A stretch of DNA of 21,939 nt from a virus. The stretch lies in IMG/VR virus record IMGVR_UViG_3300042691_008937, positions 1 through 21,939 of that record. One strand, 5' to 3'. How positions within the stretch are numbered: the first letter of the stretch is position 1; every line of letters starts with the position of its first letter. The position numbers were made by a program, and so were the translations under genes. The notes beneath the pieces were generated by a model that searched no databases, was not told the DNA's origin, and saw only the letters and a program-made list of their open reading frames with translations. Shown here one piece after another: positions 1,168 through 21,077 of the stretch.

Positions 1168-2469
1168 GTGAATGCGAATCATCATCAAGGGAGTCCCTCT
1201 GGACTTGGACGAGCCGACGGCGATCCTGCTCTTGCAGCGGGGCGTGGCGCACTTGCCAGAACAATCAGTCGTAGAACCCCGGATGCGGTCCGAGGACTCT
1301 GGTACTCAAACGCCCCGTGGGCGGGAACGGGCTACGGGCAACAAACCCAGCAAGCCGTCCAAAGGCTCATCAAAGAAGGGCACGAAATCGCAATCCACGC
1401 GATCTACGGCCTCGAAGGCTCCACGTCGACGTGGAACGGAATCAAAATCTACCCGCGAGGGATGAGTCCGTACAGCGACGATGTGGTCGTCGCACATTGG
1501 ATGGAATGGACACAAGGCACGAACCTGCCGAAGTTGTTGTTCACGTTGTTTGATGTGTGGGTGTTGAAAGCCCCGAATCTGGAGAAGGTTCCGAACATTG
1601 CGTCGTGGGTGCCTGTCGATCATCAGCCTTGTCCACCGGAGGTGGCTGCTTGGTGTCAACGTCCGAATGTGATGCCGATTGCGATGAGCAAGTTCGGTGC
1701 TCGCATGTTGGAACAGTTAGGCATCAACAGTCTCTACGTTCCGCACGGTATTGAGTCGGTGTTCAAGCCGACGCCGAGTGTGAAGGACAACGGCGGGAAA
1801 CCAATCACCGGGCGAGAGATCATGGGGTTCGGCGAGGATCAGTTCGTGGTGATGATGACGGCCGCCAACAAAGGTGTCTATCCTCCACGCAAAGCGTTCG
1901 CTGAGAACTTCATGGCGTTCAGCATGTTCGCCCAGAAACACCCGGATGCTGTTCTGTACATGCATTCTGAGGAGATGGGTTCGGCTGGTGGCATCAACTT
2001 GAAGGACTTGGCTGAGATGTGCGGTATTGCGCCAGAACGCATCAAATACGCTGACGCCTACCTGTACCGCCTAGGACTGCCTCAGAACGCTATGGCTGCC
2101 CTCTACAGCGCCGCTGACGTGCTTCTGGCTGCATCCATGGGTGAAGGGTTCGGTATCCCTGTGGTGGAAGCCCAGGCGTGCGGCACCCCGGTGATTGTCT
2201 CTAATTTCACGGCTCAGCCGGAGTTGGTTGGGGATGGTTGGATTGTGGAGGGTCAGCCGTTTTGGGATGCTGCTCAGAAGTCGTGGTTCTTGACTCCTTC
2301 GGTGCCGAGCATTCTGGATTCGTTGGAGCAGGCGTATGCGCGTGGTCGTGGCCGCTCGAAGAAGGCGGTCGAGTTCGCCAAGCAATATGACGCTGATGCG
2401 GTCTATGAGTCGCATTGGAAGCCTGCGATGAAGGAGATTGCGGAGTGGTGCCGCTCGTCCCAGTCGTAG
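1168..2469 (+). CDS. Glycosyltransferase, GT-B fold, GT4-like
   Basis: The predicted enzyme transfers a sugar from a nucleotide-sugar donor. The recognisable domain starts at GLWYSNAPWAGTGYG, a typical N-terminal acceptor-side strand and Gly-rich loop. The C-terminal donor domain has the EX7E signature in EGFGIPVVEA (Glu326 and Glu334 counted from GTG 1168), followed by CGTPVIVSNFTAQPELVG. The start is uncertain: GTG 1168 has AAGGAG 5 nt upstream, but the first 42 or so residues it would add do not look like a folded protein, and the better-looking N-terminus is in the overlapping frame at 1172. The GTG at 1081 lies inside a hairpin and is unlikely. It is the first gene of a four-gene decoration cassette placed after the capsid gene. 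Its acceptor, perhaps the capsid or a tail protein, is inferred. Confidence 0.85.
   Translation: MNANHHQGSPSGLGRADGDPALAAGRGALARTISRRTPDAVRGLWYSNAPWAGTGYGQQTQQAVQRLIKEGHEIAIHAIYGLEGSTSTWNGIKIYPRGMSPYSDDVVVAHWMEWTQGTNLPKLLFTLFDVWVLKAPNLEKVPNIASWVPVDHQPCPPEVAAWCQRPNVMPIAMSKFGARMLEQLGINSLYVPHGIESVFKPTPSVKDNGGKPITGREIMGFGEDQFVVMMTAANKGVYPPRKAFAENFMAFSMFAQKHPDAVLYMHSEEMGSAGGINLKDLAEMCGIAPERIKYADAYLYRLGLPQNAMAALYSAADVLLAASMGEGFGIPVVEAQACGTPVIVSNFTAQPELVGDGWIVEGQPFWDAAQKSWFLTPSVPSILDSLEQAYARGRGRSKKAVEFAKQYDADAVYESHWKPAMKEIAEWCRSSQS
1172..1465 (+). CDS. Small basic-tailed head/tail-type protein overlapping the glycosyltransferase frame
   Basis: The ORF encodes 97 residues. AAGGAG at 1157-1162 is 9 nt before the ATG. 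The first 37 or so residues look like a real folded segment (MRIIIKGVPLDLDEP, then ILLLQRGVAHLPEQ) and resemble the small head/tail proteins of siphophages that combine a short domain ending in an 'L-L-x-x-G' turn with a Lys/Ser-rich tail. A protein of the same architecture occurs at 5681-5851. The C-terminal 60 residues are Ser/Lys/Arg-rich and overlap the glycosyltransferase domain in another frame, so part of the tail may be shadow coding. It could be an independent gene, or the first part of a frameshifted fusion with the glycosyltransferase. Its function is unknown. Confidence 0.55.
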   Translation: MRIIIKGVPLDLDEPTAILLLQRGVAHLPEQSVVEPRMRSEDSGTQTPRGRERATGNKPSKPSKGSSKKGTKSQSTRSTASKAPRRRGTESKSTREG

Positions 2470-3095
2470 TCGTCCCGGTGCTCACTGAGCATCATCGAGT
2501 CGATGCCTTGTTGGATTCGTTCGATGGTCGCATCGGTGACCTGGTCGTGATTGACAACGGGAACAATGAGCATTGGATGCCGCGTACCGATAAGGCCAAG
2601 CGTGTGTTTCACTATCGGGTTCCGTGCAATCTCGGTGTCGCTGCGTCATGGAATCTCGGCATCAAGGTGACGTGCTCGGCATCAGGTTGGCTGATCGTGA
2701 ACCACGATGTGGTGTTCGGTACGAACGGTGTGGCAGACGTGTTCTTCCAAGCGTCACCAGGGAACATCGTTCTTTCAGGTAAGCCACCGTGGTCATGTTT
2801 CTGGTTGGGTTCGCAGGTGGTGCGCAAAGTCGGCCTGTTTCATGAAGGGTTCCATCCGGCGTACTTCGAGGACAACGACTATGAGATTCGGGCGCAACGC
2901 AAAGGTGTGGACATCGTGCGGTCGTCGGCTGCCGTCTACCATCGCAATTCCAGCACTCTGCGTTCCAGCCCTCAGTTTCAGCAACGGAATCAGGCGACGT
3001 TTGATGCGAACCGTCGTCTGTTCGAGGAGCGAATGCTTCAGGATTTGCCGTTGGATTGGGACTTGAATCGGCGTTTGGAGTTGGGGTGGGATTGA
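2445..3095 (+). CDS. Glycosyltransferase, GT-A fold, GT2-like
   Basis: The protein has about 216 residues. The GTG at 2445 has AAGGAG at 2431-2436 and overlaps the end of the preceding gene by 25 nt; GTG 2448 is an alternative. The N-terminus is a hydrophobic beta strand, VPVVVVPVLTEHHR, followed by LVVIDNGN, as in the nucleotide-sugar binding half of family 2. NHD near residue 88 occupies the place of the metal-binding DxD motif, and YFEDNDYEIRAQRKG (around residues 140-154) matches the acceptor-side ED-x-D(Y/W) motif of rhamnosyl- and galactosyl-type GT2 enzymes. It is shorter than many GT2 proteins, but the catalytic core seems complete. Substrate and acceptor are not predictable. Wobble bases are strongly biased to G and T. 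Confidence 0.85.
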   Translation: MVPLVPVVVVPVLTEHHRVDALLDSFDGRIGDLVVIDNGNNEHWMPRTDKAKRVFHYRVPCNLGVAASWNLGIKVTCSASGWLIVNHDVVFGTNGVADVFFQASPGNIVLSGKPPWSCFWLGSQVVRKVGLFHEGFHPAYFEDNDYEIRAQRKGVDIVRSSAAVYHRNSSTLRSSPQFQQRNQATFDANRRLFEERMLQDLPLDWDLNRRLELGWD

Positions 3096-3949
3096 AACTT
3101 GTTGTTGTTTGTCCTGGCGGGGCGGTGACTGGTGGACCAGAGGCGTTGCATCAACTTGTGTACATGGCCAATCAGATTGAGGCAGGTTCGGCGGCAATCA
3201 TGTATGTGCCGAATGTGCCTACTCCGTCGGCGTATCTGAAGTATGGGTGTCCGACGGTCACTTCGGTGTCTGCGGATCAGTTGGTGGTGTTGCCGGAGAT
3301 TTGGCCTGAGATGGCTCGACAGTTTCCTGATAGTCGGTGTGCATTGTGGTGGTTGAGTGTGGACAATTTCGGATCGCATGGTCAGGTTGATTTGTCGGGT
3401 ATTTCATTGCATCTGTGTCAATCGGAGTATGCGATGCGTCATGTGTCGTGGAAGGTTTCTGCTCCGAAGATGATGTTGACGGATTGGGTTGATTTGCGAT
3501 GGTTGGATGTTCCGAGGTATGCGCGGGTGGTGGTCAATCCTGCGAAGGATGCCGGGTTGATGCGACCTTTCATGGCTCGACATTCTGAGGTTGAGTTTGT
3601 GGAGTTGGCTGGTTTGGATCGGGTGGGTGTCGCCAGATTGTTGTGGGGTTCGCAGGTGTACATTGACTTTGGGCGTCATCCGGGTCGAGATAGACCGCCT
3701 CGTGAAGCTGCGTTGGCTGGGTGTGTGGTGTTGTCGGTGGAGTTGGGTTCGGCAAGGTTGTCTGATGACATGCCTTTGGATGACTGTTATAAGTTCAGTT
3801 CTTTGGATGAATGTTCGGCTGCGTTGAAGATGGTGATGTCTGATTGGCGTATGCATCATGAGGCTCAGGCTGGTTATCGAAGCGTGGTTGCGAATCAACG
3901 TGACGTATTTCGTCGTGAGGTAGGTTTGCTGCTTGACTTCTGTGGATGA
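3092..3949 (+). CDS. Glycosyltransferase-like protein (GT-B type)
   Basis: The TTG at 3092 shares bases with the previous TGA and gives MKLVVVCPGGAVTGGPEAL, a typical first strand and glycine loop; GTG 3086 is an alternative. The protein has about 285 residues. The most telling segment is YIDFGRHPGRDRPPREAALAG (from residue 190), a donor-site-like motif that I recall from phage and bacterial proteins of glycan loci. No classical EX7E spacing is obvious, so I call it glycosyltransferase-like. A full-length AGLMRPFMARHSEVEFVELAG linker between the halves fits a two-Rossmann GT-B layout. Its place between two clear glycosylation genes supports the call. It could instead be a polysaccharide-modifying enzyme of related fold. 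Confidence 0.7.
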   Translation: MKLVVVCPGGAVTGGPEALHQLVYMANQIEAGSAAIMYVPNVPTPSAYLKYGCPTVTSVSADQLVVLPEIWPEMARQFPDSRCALWWLSVDNFGSHGQVDLSGISLHLCQSEYAMRHVSWKVSAPKMMLTDWVDLRWLDVPRYARVVVNPAKDAGLMRPFMARHSEVEFVELAGLDRVGVARLLWGSQVYIDFGRHPGRDRPPREAALAGCVVLSVELGSARLSDDMPLDDCYKFSSLDECSAALKMVMSDWRMHHEAQAGYRSVVANQRDVFRREVGLLLDFCG

Positions 3950-4625
3950 TTTGGTGCGTGAGAGGTTGCGTACGGTAAAGCGCAGCGAGTTCGATGCGGT
4001 TGATACTTGGCTTGGCTTGTTGCGTGAGTTCGGTTTCAACGATGAGAATCGGGAAGAGTTGCCTGATGAGATGTTGGATTGTGCAGGTTTCGGGTTGCGG
4101 ATTTGGCAGTACCCCAATCAGTTCGGACCGTATATGGCATGGTTGTGTTCTGAGGCGTTGACCATCCGGTCGTATCTGGAGATTGGGACTCGTCACGGTG
4201 GTACGTTCATTACGCATGTTGAGACGTTGCGTCGGTTGAACCCCGGGTTTGGTAGGGCTGTTGCGGTTGATTTGATAGATCGACCGGCGATTCTTGGACC
4301 CTATGAGTATCGACAGCAGAACTCTCAGACTGCTGGGTTCGTGGATTGGGTGAGCGGTCAGATGTTTGATTTGGTGTTCATTGACGGTGACCATTCGTAT
4401 TGGGGTGTGAGAAGGGATGCCGAGTCGACGTTTGGGCGTTCCAACATTCAGGTGTTTCATGACATCACATCGGACATTTGCCCTGGTGTCGGGACGTATT
4501 GGCGTGAGTACAAGCAGCAGAACGCCTCGACGCACGACTTCTTGGAATTCACCGATCAGTACGAATCAGTCAATGGGTCGTTCTTGGGGATTGGTGTCGC
4601 CCGTCGTAAGAACTGGATTGAGTAG
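3933..4625 (+). CDS. Class I SAM-dependent methyltransferase (Methyltransf_24-like)
   Basis: The predicted enzyme transfers a methyl group from S-adenosylmethionine, probably to a sugar or another small group in the glycan made by the three upstream enzymes. YLEIGTRHGGT (from residue 81) is the SAM-binding motif I, and DLVFIDGDHSY (residues 146-156) is the motif typical of Methyltransf_24 and cephalosporin-hydroxylase-like proteins, followed by the FHDIT strand. The protein has about 230 residues. The TTG at 3933 has AGGTAGG at 3918-3924 and overlaps the previous gene by 17 nt; GTG 3942 is possible. Sugar O-methylation fits the context but is inferred; protein methylation cannot be excluded. 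It is the last gene of the cassette before the connector genes resume. Confidence 0.8.
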   Translation: MTSVDDLVRERLRTVKRSEFDAVDTWLGLLREFGFNDENREELPDEMLDCAGFGLRIWQYPNQFGPYMAWLCSEALTIRSYLEIGTRHGGTFITHVETLRRLNPGFGRAVAVDLIDRPAILGPYEYRQQNSQTAGFVDWVSGQMFDLVFIDGDHSYWGVRRDAESTFGRSNIQVFHDITSDICPGVGTYWREYKQQNASTHDFLEFTDQYESVNGSFLGIGVARRKNWIE

Positions 4626-4637
4626 GATTGAGCGAGT

Positions 4638-5267
4638 ATGGCCAACGAGAACCTCTATGCGACCCGCGCTCAAATCAAGGCGGCTCTTCGTATCGGCACG
4701 GCCGACACGCTTGATGACACGCTGATTGACAACTGTGCCGGTGCGGCATCTCGTCTCATTGACGGGTATTGCAACCGTCAGTTTTGGGCTGCGACTACGG
4801 CTACGGCACGAGTGTTCCAAGCCAACACCGAGTTCGTGTGTGATGTGGACGACTTCTACACCACGACAGGTTTCATACTGAAGACGTCATCGTTTGCTGA
4901 CGGCAACTTCGATACAACATGGGCGACGACCGACTACCAGTTGGAACCGTTGAACGGAATCCTCGATGGCCTCACCTGGTCCTATGACAAGATTCGTGCA
5001 GTCGGCAACTACCTATTCCCGACCGTGAACGCAAACTATGGTGAGCAGGCTCTCGTTCAGGTGACTGCGAAATGGGGTTGGGCTGCGATACCTGACCCGG
5101 TGACCCAAGCCTGCATCATCCAGGCGTCACGCATCTTCAAGCGTTATGACTCGCCGCTCGGTGTCGCGGGGTTTGGTGATTTGGGTGCTATCCGTGTTTC
5201 TCGATTCCTTGACCCTGACATGGCTCAGTTGGTTGAGCCGTATCGACGAATGCGGATGTTCGCCTAA
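4638..5267 (+). CDS. Head-tail connector / adaptor protein (gp6-like)
   Basis: This protein is predicted to sit under the portal and close the DNA-filled head. It has 209 residues. The N-terminus, ATRAQIKAALRIGTADTLDDTLIDNCAGAASRLIDGYCNR, is the helical signature of HK97 gp6-like and SPP1 gp15-like adaptors: two helices that start with a short 'ADTLDDTLID' stretch. The centre is beta-rich, and the C-terminus has the helical ITQASRIFKRYDSPLGVAG type segment ending in a basic tail. It lies in the position expected between capsid and tail terminator, once the glycosylation cassette is discounted. TAGGA 10-14 nt upstream may be the ribosome site. Its stop overlaps the next start (TAATG). Confidence 0.8.
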   Translation: MANENLYATRAQIKAALRIGTADTLDDTLIDNCAGAASRLIDGYCNRQFWAATTATARVFQANTEFVCDVDDFYTTTGFILKTSSFADGNFDTTWATTDYQLEPLNGILDGLTWSYDKIRAVGNYLFPTVNANYGEQALVQVTAKWGWAAIPDPVTQACIIQASRIFKRYDSPLGVAGFGDLGAIRVSRFLDPDMAQLVEPYRRMRMFA

Positions 5268-7260: not shown

Positions 7261-7288
7261 CGCTACGCTGACCTGTAAGGAGCCCGCC

Positions 7289-8026
7289 ATGTTCCCAGAA
7301 GTTCAGTTGGACAACGTCCGTGCCGTCAGGTTTGACTACGTCAAGTCCGTCGTTCCCAAGCCGTTCGCTGGTTCGTGGGTGCAGTTGTGGTCTCGTCTGT
7401 GCATCCGTAAGGAAACCCGACGCAAGGATCAGCGTGCGCTGTGGTCGCCAGTCATCTATGCACCAGGCACCACACGAAGCAATCGGAATGTGGAGGCTGT
7501 GACCTGTCTCGTGGTGGACATGGACGGTGAGTCGTTCGACTATGCACGGTTGGATGGGTTGGAATGGTTTGCGTACACGACTTGGTCGCATCGTCCGAAC
7601 GATGAACACTGGCATTTGGTTCTCCCGCTCAAAGACCCGGTGCCTGCCCATCGTTGGGCAGAGGTGTGGACTCGGCTGCATGAACGCATCAACGTCGTCG
7701 GCGACCCAGCCACGAAGGACCCTGCTCGTATCTTCTATCTGCCTCAGCATCCTGTGGGACGGTTTGATTGGTCGTCTCGGAAGTATGGGCATGGCGAGTT
7801 CTTGGATGCTGGGTTGGGTGAACTGTTTGTTCCTCCTCGTTTGCATGTGGCTCGTATGCCTCGAACCGTGGAGTCGCACAGTCGAGCGAAGTACTACTGG
7901 CAGGATGAGGCGTGGTGGAATGAGCCGCAGGATTTGAGTCGGTTTGCTGGGATGACTCAGCAGCAGGTTGCGGTGGCGTTGCGTAGTGAGTTTGCTGATC
8001 TCAGAAAGTCGTTGTCTTTGGACTGA
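7289..8026 (+). CDS. Primase-polymerase (AEP)-like protein inside the tail module
   Basis: The protein has 245 residues. TAAGGAG (7276-7282) fixes the start at ATG 7289. Three motifs in the right order resemble an archaeo-eukaryotic primase catalytic domain: TCLVVDMDG (Asp77 and Asp79, motif I, DxD), EHWHLVLPL (His109, motif II, sxH) and ATKDPARIFYLP (Asp144 and Arg147, motif III). The YTTWSH stretch between motifs I and II is also seen in plasmid and phage primase-helicases. There is no helicase domain; the protein ends after about 80 residues of Trp-rich tail. Replication proteins are not expected between chaperone and tape measure genes. It might instead be a degenerate, structural or regulatory relative. 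Confidence 0.62.
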   Translation: MFPEVQLDNVRAVRFDYVKSVVPKPFAGSWVQLWSRLCIRKETRRKDQRALWSPVIYAPGTTRSNRNVEAVTCLVVDMDGESFDYARLDGLEWFAYTTWSHRPNDEHWHLVLPLKDPVPAHRWAEVWTRLHERINVVGDPATKDPARIFYLPQHPVGRFDWSSRKYGHGEFLDAGLGELFVPPRLHVARMPRTVESHSRAKYYWQDEAWWNEPQDLSRFAGMTQQQVAVALRSEFADLRKSLSLD

Positions 8027-11398: not shown

Positions 11399-11605
11399 AT
11401 GGGAGCAGGATTCCGAACCTTCGCCAGTGGCGAAGTATTGACAAGCACGAACGTCATGGACTATCTGATGAAACAGATGGTGATGGTGTTCGCAGGTACA
11501 GCCGAACGAGGCTCAGCTCTTCCGTCACCAGAAACGGGAATGGTCACGTACTCAACCGCGACGGGAATGCAGGTCTACAACGGCACCGCCTGGGTTAGTA
11601 TTTAG
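11399..11605 (+). CDS. Short tail-tip protein, duplicate of adhesin N-terminus
   Basis: The protein has 68 residues. It opens with FRTFASGEVLTSTNVMDYLM and closes with STATGMQVYNGTAWVSI. This module is common at the start of actinophage minor tail proteins, where it probably attaches the fibre to the tail tip. Here it stands alone. The next gene begins with a close copy of the same module followed by a glycine-rich domain. The gap between the two genes is only four bases. It may cap or dock the tip, or be a remnant of a former adhesin whose C-terminal part was lost. Confidence 0.8.
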   Translation: MGAGFRTFASGEVLTSTNVMDYLMKQMVMVFAGTAERGSALPSPETGMVTYSTATGMQVYNGTAWVSI

Positions 11606-11813
11606 TCTCATGGGTTCCGGCTTCCGCACCTTCGCCAGCGGCGAAGTATTGACTTCGAGCAACGTCCAGAACTATCTCATGGATCAGGCCGTCATGGTGT
11701 TCGCAGGAACAGCCGCACGAGCCTCAGCCCTACCCTCACCCGAAGTTGGCATGACCGCCTACTCGACAGCCACAGGACTCCAGGTCTACAACGGCACAGC
11801 ATGGGTGAACGCT
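11399..11813 (+). repeat. Tandem duplication of tail module DNA
   Basis: The units 11399-11605 and 11610-11813 align along their whole length. For example, 32-nt blocks starting at 11409 and 11620 differ at only two positions, and both contain GGCGAAGTATTGAC. Protein identity is clearly high over about 67 residues. The retained DNA identity suggests a duplication that is recent relative to the rest of the module, or ongoing exchange between the copies. Confidence 0.8.
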
Positions 11814-12617
11814 GGATTGAAAGTTTTGGCTGTTGACGCATTTATCGCTGCTGGTGGAGGCGGAGGTGGTGCCGACGCTTCAGCCGATCAAGGCTCAGGT
11901 GGAGCTGGTGGTGGTGGTGTAGTCACATTGACAGGGCAGTATTTGGTTGCGGGAACCGCCACGGTGATTATTGGTGCTGGTGGTGCAGGTGCATCTGCAG
12001 GTATTCGATCTTTGGGTCATTCGGGCGGGGCATCGTATTTCGGCGCGTTCGCTGCAATCGGTGGCGGTGGTGGTGGTGTGGCAACTGGTAGCAACAATGG
12101 TGGGAATGGTGGTTCCGGCGGCGGTGAAGGTGGCAACGCTGGCACATTCGGCAATGGCATTTCAGGACAAGGCAATAATGGTGGCACCTCAAATGCTCAA
12201 ACCAATGCGGGTGGTGGCGGTGGCGCTGGCGGTGTTGGTGGCAACGGCAACAGCACAACAGGTGGCGCAGGTGGCGCAGCAACTACGAATAACTGGACAG
12301 GCACAACGTACACAGTTGGTGGCGGTGGCGGTGGCATGGGTTCAGTCACAGGCGGTACAGGTGGCACAAATGCCGGCAACGGTTCAAGCGGTGCAGGTGC
12401 ACCTGGTACAGGTAGCGCAAATAACGCTGGTGGTGGTGGTGGTACTTATGGCAACACAAACGCTGGTGGCAGCGGCGGTTCAGGGCGAGTCATCATTCGT
12501 TTCCTTACGGCCGATCTAAACTTTTCAATCTCCACTACTGGTTCGCCAACATCTGGAACAAACGGAAGTTACACATGGTACATGTGGACCTCTTCAGGAA
12601 GCTTTACACTGGCTTAG
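11610..12617 (+). CDS. Glycine-rich tail adhesin
   Basis: The protein has 335 residues in two parts. Residues 1-67 repeat the FRTFASGEVLTS module of the preceding gene. From about residue 80 the sequence is a glycine-rich domain: runs of G with Ala, Ser, Asn and Thr, opening with LKVLAVDAFIAAGGGGGGAD and including a VIIGAGGAG segment; it closes with GGSGGSGRVIIRFLTADL, which matches the usual end of Gly_rich_2-type domains. The last 40 residues form a small beta domain (GTNGSYTWYMWTSSGSF). Phage glycine-rich adhesins such as S16 gp38 use polyglycine layers to present receptor-binding loops; a receptor-binding role here is inferred. No ribosome site is visible; the TAG-to-ATG gap is four bases. 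Confidence 0.8.
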   Translation: MGSGFRTFASGEVLTSSNVQNYLMDQAVMVFAGTAARASALPSPEVGMTAYSTATGLQVYNGTAWVNAGLKVLAVDAFIAAGGGGGGADASADQGSGGAGGGGVVTLTGQYLVAGTATVIIGAGGAGASAGIRSLGHSGGASYFGAFAAIGGGGGGVATGSNNGGNGGSGGGEGGNAGTFGNGISGQGNNGGTSNAQTNAGGGGGAGGVGGNGNSTTGGAGGAATTNNWTGTTYTVGGGGGGMGSVTGGTGGTNAGNGSSGAGAPGTGSANNAGGGGGTYGNTNAGGSGGSGRVIIRFLTADLNFSISTTGSPTSGTNGSYTWYMWTSSGSFTLA

Positions 12618-13075: not shown

Positions 13076-13627
13076 ATGAAGCTTCCCGTCGTACCGGTGA
13101 AGCTCCCTGCTGACCTCAAAGGGATACCGAACGGAGAACTACCCAAACGGCTGTTGAAGCCGATTGAACCGTCGGGCAGGTTGCATCATTTCGCTGCCGA
13201 TGCGTGGGCATGGTTGCGTGAGAAAGCGGCAGAGGAGAATCTGGTTCTTGCGCAGGTTGGTGACTATCGGCCGCTCGATCAGCAGGTTGCGTTGTTCAAG
13301 ACTCGGATGCGTCCGTTCCCTGATGCGAAACGAAAGACGCAGGTGACTCGCCGTTGGAACGGTGAGACGTGGTATTTGCATGTTGGTGCCCCGGTGGCGA
13401 CACCAGGTACATCGAATCATGGTTTCGGTTTGGCTGTGGATGCTGCGTTGATGCTGAAGAACGGGACAGTTGTGTCGATTACCGCAACTCCACCGAGGGC
13501 GAAACGTAGCGGGTTGGCGTTCTTGGCGCAGTGGGCTCCGCAGGTCGGGTTCTCTTGGGAGATACCGAAGGTGGAACCTTGGCACATTCGTTATGTCACT
13601 GGACGACCACCAGTGTTTCCTGAGTAG
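13076..13627 (+). CDS. Endolysin, M15 (VanY-like) peptidase
   Basis: The protein has 183 residues and no signal peptide, so release should depend on a holin. It is predicted to cut the peptide stems of peptidoglycan. GTSNHGFGLAVD holds the zinc ligands His115 and Asp122, and EPWHIRYV holds Glu167 (general base) and His170 (third ligand). The upstream part includes VGDYRPLDQQVALF, which matches the substrate-side helix of M15 D-Ala-D-Ala carboxypeptidases and L-Ala-D-Glu peptidases. No cell-wall-binding domain is attached, so this is a single-domain lysin. It is flanked by two holin candidates. Confidence 0.9.
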   Translation: MKLPVVPVKLPADLKGIPNGELPKRLLKPIEPSGRLHHFAADAWAWLREKAAEENLVLAQVGDYRPLDQQVALFKTRMRPFPDAKRKTQVTRRWNGETWYLHVGAPVATPGTSNHGFGLAVDAALMLKNGTVVSITATPPRAKRSGLAFLAQWAPQVGFSWEIPKVEPWHIRYVTGRPPVFPE

Positions 13628-15467: not shown

Positions 15468-15986
15468 ATGCGAACCCTCACCGCAACCCTCACACTCACC
15501 CTCATAGCCATCCTCGGACTCGTCCCAGCCATGGCCGCAGAAGCCCCACAACAGCCCTCCAAACGCCCTATGGCATCCACCAGCACCACCACTACCACCC
15601 TCGCTCCGACGCCTCCCAGACGGCCTCTAAACGTCGCTGACGGGCAATCCTGCCCAGGCTGGATAGACGTCGCCCGTGAGGTCGGTTGGCCTGAAGCCGA
15701 ACTACCGATGGTTGGGGCGATCACCTACTTCGAGTCCCGATGTCGGATGGACGTCCGAGGCGACAAAGGCGTCTCATGGACCGCCTTCCAAATCCACACC
15801 AAATCGTGGTGCCGACCCAACCGCTACTACCCGAACGGCTATCTGCAATCGTTGCAAATAGTGAAGACCTGCGAAGACCTCCTCGACCCACACACCGCAG
15901 CCCGAGCAGCCCTCGTCATCTGGCAGTACGGAGGCTGGACACCTTGGACCACCCGCCACCTAGCATCCACCAGTCTCGGCCACTAA
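15468..15986 (+). CDS. Secreted lysozyme-like / lytic transglycosylase
   Basis: The protein has 172 residues. It has a signal peptide (MRT..., a hydrophobic TLTLIAILGLVPAMA core, likely cleavage after AMA at about residue 23), a Thr/Pro-rich linker (STSTTTTTLAPTPP) and a lysozyme-fold domain. GAITYFESRC carries the candidate catalytic Glu89, followed by WTAFQIHTKSWC, a cysteine pair around the domain, DPHTAARAALVIWQYGGWTP and a closing TTRH. The E-S-R motif and the WQYGGWTPW end match actinobacterial transglycosylase-like domains. GAAAGG lies 7 nt before the ATG. It could act on the wall from outside, late in infection or as a secreted factor. It is distinct from the cytoplasmic M15 endolysin. 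Confidence 0.8.
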   Translation: MRTLTATLTLTLIAILGLVPAMAAEAPQQPSKRPMASTSTTTTTLAPTPPRRPLNVADGQSCPGWIDVAREVGWPEAELPMVGAITYFESRCRMDVRGDKGVSWTAFQIHTKSWCRPNRYYPNGYLQSLQIVKTCEDLLDPHTAARAALVIWQYGGWTPWTTRHLASTSLGH

Positions 15987-20916: not shown

Positions 20917-21077
20917 AGACTTATCCGATGGTGTCGTTCCGATGCGACACTCAACTTCACAAATCCATCCAACGAGAAGCCAAACGACGCAACATGAACG
21001 TCAGCGAGTTCATCAAAGAAGCCGTCACCTTCCACCTTGACAATCTCGCCGACCAACGAAGAATGCACAACCAATGA
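20913..21077 (+). CDS. Ribbon-helix-helix DNA-binding protein
   Basis: The protein has 54 residues, with ATGA overlaps on both sides. MVSFRCDTQLHKSIQREAKR (a beta strand then helix A) followed by RNMNVSEFIKEAVTFHLDNL (turn and helix B) is a canonical MetJ/Arc/CopG layout: strand at about residues 5-10, helix 12-27 and helix 30-44. The Asn-Val-Ser-Glu start of helix B is typical. It likely dimerises and binds repeated operators such as those at 20365-20394. It directly precedes and overlaps the cytosine methyltransferase gene, which it may regulate. Confidence 0.85.
   Translation: MKTYPMVSFRCDTQLHKSIQREAKRRNMNVSEFIKEAVTFHLDNLADQRRMHNQ

Follow-up and report, generated by a model that had tools for sequence, protein, structure and literature searches.

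A phage glycosyltransferase gene that probably encloses a second, out-of-frame gene, in an exchangeable cassette between capsid and connector

Between the capsid and connector genes of a phage clade that likely infects actinobacteria lies a swappable set of glycan-modifying genes, the first of which, coding for a GT4 glycosyltransferase, probably contains a complete second gene in another reading frame, with both products started by alternative initiation from a single Shine-Dalgarno sequence. The same reading, which we hold to be probable as a whole, takes the enzymes to decorate a virion protein late in infection and the small product to be a minor head protein. The overlap is conserved in more than 150 related viral sequences and appears to be previously undescribed; a search of the open-access literature turned up no phage glycosyltransferase described as containing a nested gene. 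The whole stretch of DNA analysed (21,939 nucleotides), hereafter the window, is a 21.9 kb piece of the genome of an uncultured tailed phage. Its host is likely actinobacterial, to judge by sequence relationships, because relatives of its capsid in cellular genomes fall into Actinomycetota records (plus one record of an uncultured bacterium) and because a WhiB-like gene is present. The interval between capsid and connector and its flanks comprise the following features:

3 to 1031, + strand: HK97-fold major capsid gene, its 5′ end cut by the window (Pfam Phage_capsid 3e-55, phrog_10 2e-56)
1157 to 1162, + strand: Shine-Dalgarno sequence AAGGAG, read from the sequence, common to GTG 1168 (5 nt downstream) and ATG 1172 (9 nt downstream)
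1168 to 2469, + strand: GT4 glycosyltransferase (Pfam and PHROG profiles, E-x7-E motif)
1172 to 1465, + strand: putative +1-frame gene lying wholly within GT4 and coding for a protein of 97 aa (frame statistics, conservation, AlphaFold2)
2448 to 3095, + strand: GT2-type glycosyltransferase, GTG start inferred (phrog_29879 7e-37, motifs conserved in 137 relatives)
3092 to 3949, + strand: predicted GT-B glycosyltransferase, TTG start inferred, accessory slot (alignment, AlphaFold2, Foldseek against the PDB)
3933 to 4625, + strand: SAM-dependent methyltransferase of the Methyltransf_24 type, accessory slot (Pfam 3e-7, motifs conserved in 19 relatives)
4638 to 5267, + strand: head-tail connector closing the interval (phrog_442 head-tail adaptor 4e-16)

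The original prediction had placed an enzyme cassette at 1168-4625, between an HK97-type capsid gene and a head-tail connector, and this placement holds, the Phage_capsid and phrog_442 matches identifying the flanks; the four enzymes stand as well, but the conserved out-of-frame gene at 1172-1465 in the 5′ end of GT4 had been missed. The cassette genes overlap each neighbour by about 4 to 22 bases, the starts being partly inferred, and are probably co-translated. GT4 matches Pfam Glycos_transf_1 (2e-13) and the glycosyltransferase family phrog_2170 (9e-36), and its E-x7-E donor-binding signature GEGFGxPxxEA is found in 155 of 156 relatives; the conserved enzyme core begins with LWYSNAPW at position 1297, preceded over the nested gene by a leader (1168-1296) of unconstrained amino-acid sequence. 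For the GT2 enzyme the Pfam match is weak, the profile hit is to phrog_29879 ('galactosyl transferase'), and the N-x-D and E-D-x-D motifs are at least 97% conserved among the 137 relatives. The methyltransferase exceeds the curated Methyltransf_24 cut-off (31.7 against 26.3 bits) and retains its EIGxRHGG and DGDHSY motifs in the relatives. The third transferase gave no match in a Pfam profile search and no relative in a search of named phages; its AlphaFold2 model (pLDDT 91.7) adopts a two-domain GT-B fold, the best Foldseek matches in the PDB are the glucosyltransferase entries 8xsh/8xsg (E 5e-10, TM 0.75-0.77), and the alignment contains the motifs TGGPEALHQ and HPGRDRPPREAA. By its modelled structure the third gene is a GT-B glycosyltransferase, given here without a CAZy family. 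Hence the classes originally proposed, GT4-, GT2-, GT-B- and Methyltransf_24-like, agree with profiles and conserved motifs and, for the third protein, with a predicted fold that is GT-B and not another one; profile searches alone confirm GT4 and the methyltransferase in Pfam and GT2 in PHROG, leaving the third without a family match. The cassette genes tested are under purifying selection and their catalytic motifs are intact.

Elsewhere in the window, the gene at 7263-8026 (ORF listed from 7073) matches DNA primase PHROGs (phrog_9765, 8e-13) and no Pfam family, and is situated among tail genes just before the tape measure, an unexpected site for a replication-type protein. Two adjacent genes within 11399-12617 encode products with nearly the same N-terminal segment (MGxGFRTFASGEVLTS...), to which the second adds a glycine-rich domain (Gly_rich_2, 9e-18); they resemble a duplicated pair of tail or appendage proteins. 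A VanY-type D-Ala-D-Ala carboxypeptidase (13076-13627) and a weakly lysozyme-like product (SLT_3, 15468-15986) are probably encoded by lysis genes.

Scans of viral contigs yielded about 160 loci carrying the GT4 gene, and synteny is evident from the cassette core occupying the same site in about 140 contigs, far beyond chance. The interval is readable in 142 loci, in which the GT2 family accounts for 137 ORFs, nearly always directly after GT4, and behind this pair about 15 further families alternate in 25 arrangements, counts which rest on mechanical ORF calling with certain contigs counted twice and with family F2 representing two merged groups. The alternating families include the GT-B enzyme, GT17, GT2-like and MptE-like proteins, several methyltransferases, a 2OG-Fe(II) oxygenase and homing-endonuclease-like genes. 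Judged by these loci, GT4 and GT2 form a constant core behind which accessory transferases, methyltransferases and the oxygenase are exchanged. One relative (L002), 92-98% identical to the window over capsid, GT4, GT2 and GT3, is devoid of the methyltransferase, and two others (L003 and L004) combine near-identical flanks with different accessory genes. A connector-based search revealed 31 relatives without GT4, in which the gap between capsid and connector mostly measures 106-163 nt (535-815 nt in four of them), as well as 23 relatives with GT4 but without the small ORF. The comparative picture is that of an optional, exchangeable insert, and this speaks for surface variation rather than for a core function in assembly. 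The site had been regarded as normally free of enzymes, which is true for most cassette-free relatives with their short gaps, but not for Pontimonas phage phiPsal1 and many environmental phages equipped with a like cassette. Homing-endonuclease-like genes (HNH and GIY-YIG, assigned by eye) reside within the cassette interval of L061, L141, L158, L164 and L165 and might drive its exchange. Behind the connector, divergent versions of the tail terminator gene (about 60% against more than 90% identity to the window) occur in otherwise similar phages (L010, L011, L019, L036 and others), which suggests recombination within the neck module.

Glycosylation of the virion by the cassette is plausible from its genetic setting, since the late-operon position, the purifying selection, the intact catalytic motifs and the pattern of presence and absence in relatives all fit such a role. 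To call it a complete virion-decoration system was too strong, with no nucleotide-sugar synthesis gene seen in the window and with a methyltransferase that is optional. Capsids of cassette-bearing and cassette-free phages, aligned and compared by eye, display no obvious acceptor insertion. The glycosyltransferases may instead modify the host envelope, providing superinfection exclusion, or phage DNA, an alternative to which we allow a minor though appreciable chance: freshwater actinophage isolates are reported to encode glycosyltransferases for which both protection of DNA and alteration of the cell wall have been proposed (PMC10202952), and a C5 DNA methylase at 21074 would suit the DNA-modification variant. 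This is opposed by the location of the glycosyltransferase genes inside the head operon with overlapping starts, by the absence of a hydroxymethyl-pyrimidine pathway or a membrane-anchored Gtr-like protein among the annotated genes of the window, and by mycobacteriophages with glycosyltransferases of their own, in which, as far as the account in PMC12363180 goes, capsid and tail-tube proteins are glycosylated. As this alternative concerns the target of the enzymes only, the nested gene is untouched by it.

Upstream of the LWYSNAPW core there is no close in-frame start codon for GT4, and a well-formed small ORF extends in another frame from ATG 1172 to a stop at 1465; the GT4 start, GTG 1168, precedes this ATG by four bases and uses the same Shine-Dalgarno sequence. 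The same frame change recurs in 156 loci, including those of a second clade which, where compared, shares only about 62-66% identity with the window in GT4. In all 156 the small-ORF ATG lies exactly 125 nt 5′ of the LWYSN codon, and every one of 59 non-redundant loci has a GT4-frame start (GTG, ATG or TTG) 4, 7, 10 or 13 nt upstream of that ATG, compared with start codons at these positions in 4/59 and 2/59 loci for the other two frames. Across the relatives the Shine-Dalgarno sequence follows the GT4 start: the first base of GGAG stays about 9-10 nt upstream of it, whereas the spacing to the small-ORF ATG ranges from 13 to 20 nt.

According to six statistical tests on up to 59 non-redundant loci, with clean controls, both frames are translated and selected, each frame of the overlap carrying a coding constraint of its own. 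In clade 1, the small-ORF frame has a pN/pS of 0.44 over 1175-1282 and of 1.28 over 1286-1465; for the GT4 frame the values are 1.45 and 0.23, respectively. Third positions of the small ORF at which T would introduce a GT4-frame stop have T in 0 of 337 cases; the rate is 82 of 1011 at other sites and 19.5% for the capsid control. Counted as changes on a tree, the contrast is 0/68 against 35/219 (p=6e-5). The upstream start, the co-moving Shine-Dalgarno sequence and this avoidance of GT4-frame stops imply that GT4 is translated across the small ORF, the leader being constrained in its openness and start codon and not in its amino-acid sequence. The small ORF, in turn, should be translated because of the low pN/pS in its frame and because of selection on synonymous choice in its tail. 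There, T at GT4 third positions would place hydrophobic residues in the small protein, and T/(T+C) at these positions is reduced to 0.02-0.10 in the overlap and goes up again where the small ORF ends, which is past codon 30 or so in the clade whose ORF has 72 residues and past about codon 50-55 in the clade whose ORF has 97. Against synonymous recoding simulations the tail of the small protein has 2.6-3.8% of hydrophobic residues (24-34% expected), 34-35% of Ser/Thr (16-23% expected) and no stops (about 0.9 expected). No comparable composition effect was found in downstream segments or in 21 GT4 genes without the small ORF, and the latter rule out a codon-usage effect of gene 5′ ends; in clade 2 a mild hydrophobic deficit and an excess of stops are observed at codons 30-55, just past the small ORF.

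The position of ATG 1172, just behind GTG 1168 on the same Shine-Dalgarno sequence, would also be expected if the small ORF were a regulatory decoy, out-of-frame initiation lowering GT4 synthesis and yielding a functionless product. We consider this very unlikely in view of the amino-acid-level constraint on residues 1-37 of the small protein (pN/pS 0.44), the compositional selection reaching the end of the ORF and the confidently predicted short fold. Most improbable is programmed -1 ribosomal frameshifting that would fuse a small head-protein domain to GT4 and tether the enzyme to the capsid: it does predict that constraint switches near 1285 out of the small-ORF frame and into the -1 frame, as is seen in all loci, but a strict slippery heptamer occurs anywhere in 4/59 loci and within codons 33-43 in 0/59, and neither the universal upstream GT4-frame start, nor the Shine-Dalgarno sequence moving with it, nor the avoidance of GT4-frame stops upstream of the junction, nor selection on the small frame continuing past the junction is predicted, and on these grounds it is set aside as the main mechanism. 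A frameshift error in sequencing or assembly, suspected from the GT4 core without a nearby start, is dismissed by the recurrence of the frame change in 156 loci.

Within the 97-residue product of the small ORF, residues 1-29 are predicted by AlphaFold2 to fold into a hairpin and a helix (pLDDT 91-95), and the tail, rich in Ser, Thr, Lys and Arg, is predicted to be disordered. No Pfam match above cut-off, no NCBIfam match and no match in named phages were obtained. Prophages of actinobacteria that have related capsids (L182, L184, L186, L188 and L189) encode a protein of about 67-102 residues directly after the capsid (phrog_2616 / phrog_2322-like); as the small ORF does, this gene adjoins the capsid and combines a short head bearing ELPEDEA..LL..GLA with a basic tail, but it is stand-alone, whereas the small gene of the window is nested in a glycosyltransferase and has a Ser/Thr-rich tail. 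Comparison of the two profiles gave an hhalign probability of 91% (E 1e-6) for what are very short proteins, and direct searches gave no PHROG match for the window protein and E values of about 1 or worse in the genome search. Position, architecture and this one profile match make homology to the prophage post-capsid gene likely. The closest cassette-free relatives found by the connector-based search have no small gene, and it is for this reason not essential to the head. Selection has enriched the tail in Ser/Thr far more than the overlapping enzyme sequence requires; the tail is a candidate glycan acceptor, and its enrichment could also reflect disorder alone. That the nested protein is an acceptor displayed on the capsid, its tail receiving O-linked sugar from the very enzyme in whose gene it is nested, we regard as unlikely; if true, one DNA stretch would encode a glycosyltransferase together with its own substrate.

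Under the favoured reading, of a swappable cassette with two genes sharing one ribosome-binding site, a glyco-cassette would have entered between the capsid and connector genes of one actinobacterial phage clade, where the tail-coding part of the small gene may have come to overlap the 5′ end of GT4, possibly because GT4 grew over a small gene that was there before. One Shine-Dalgarno sequence would serve both starts, 4-13 nt apart, alternative initiation presumably yielding both proteins late in infection. The small protein would then be a minor head protein, kin of the prophage post-capsid gene product, and the enzymes would act late on a virion protein: GT4 and GT2 may attach the first sugars of a short glycan, which the accessory enzymes would extend or methylate, thereby setting the surface type of the phage.

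Annotation commonly drops one of two overlapping frames, and to our knowledge conserved nested genes on the same strand have seldom been documented in tailed phages. The signals supporting the present one can be looked for in any relative, and the locus offers a natural case of two starts per ribosome-binding site with the turnover of start codons and Shine-Dalgarno sequences visible across a clade. The cassette also shows exchange of surface chemistry at a fixed site in uncultured actinophages, similarly to the glycotype islands of bacteria, and should virions prove to be glycosylated, the type of glycan could be predicted from the accessory genes.

The named precedent for the cassette is phiPsal1 (MG835450), infecting a planktonic actinobacterium, where the like order of capsid, GT4 (45% identity), SAM methyltransferase, GT2 (about 41%) and neck protein is found; the phage itself is now lost (PMC6106888). 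It differs in having no nested gene, its GT4 being started from a normal ATG shortly upstream of the conserved core. Synechococcus phage S-CBS4 shares with the window a head module with GT4, GT2 and methyltransferase, but the sequences are distant and its GT4 is set before the protease and the capsid; in Microcystis phage Mae-JY09, likewise distant in sequence, GT4 follows the capsid as in the window, but a separate small gene stands between the two. Virion glycosylation is described for mycobacteriophages Che8, Corndog and Myrna (Freeman 2023, as cited in PMC12363180 and PMC11256854), which, as far as these accounts go, resemble the window phage in phage-encoded glycosyltransferases, also found here, and in actinobacterial hosts; their glycan was demonstrated on capsid and tail proteins, whereas virion glycosylation in the window phage is a proposal, and the same accounts put the enzymes of the related phage Maravista near the 3′ end of the genome, whereas those of the window adjoin the capsid. 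As for the paired starts, ambiguous initiation at AUGUG or GUGUG in E. coli likewise derives two products from two close starts in different frames at one initiation site (PMC9841429). There the starts share a base (AUGUG), whereas starts of the window type are 4-13 nt apart and, unlike the E. coli sites, are kept over a large phage clade with both frames selected.
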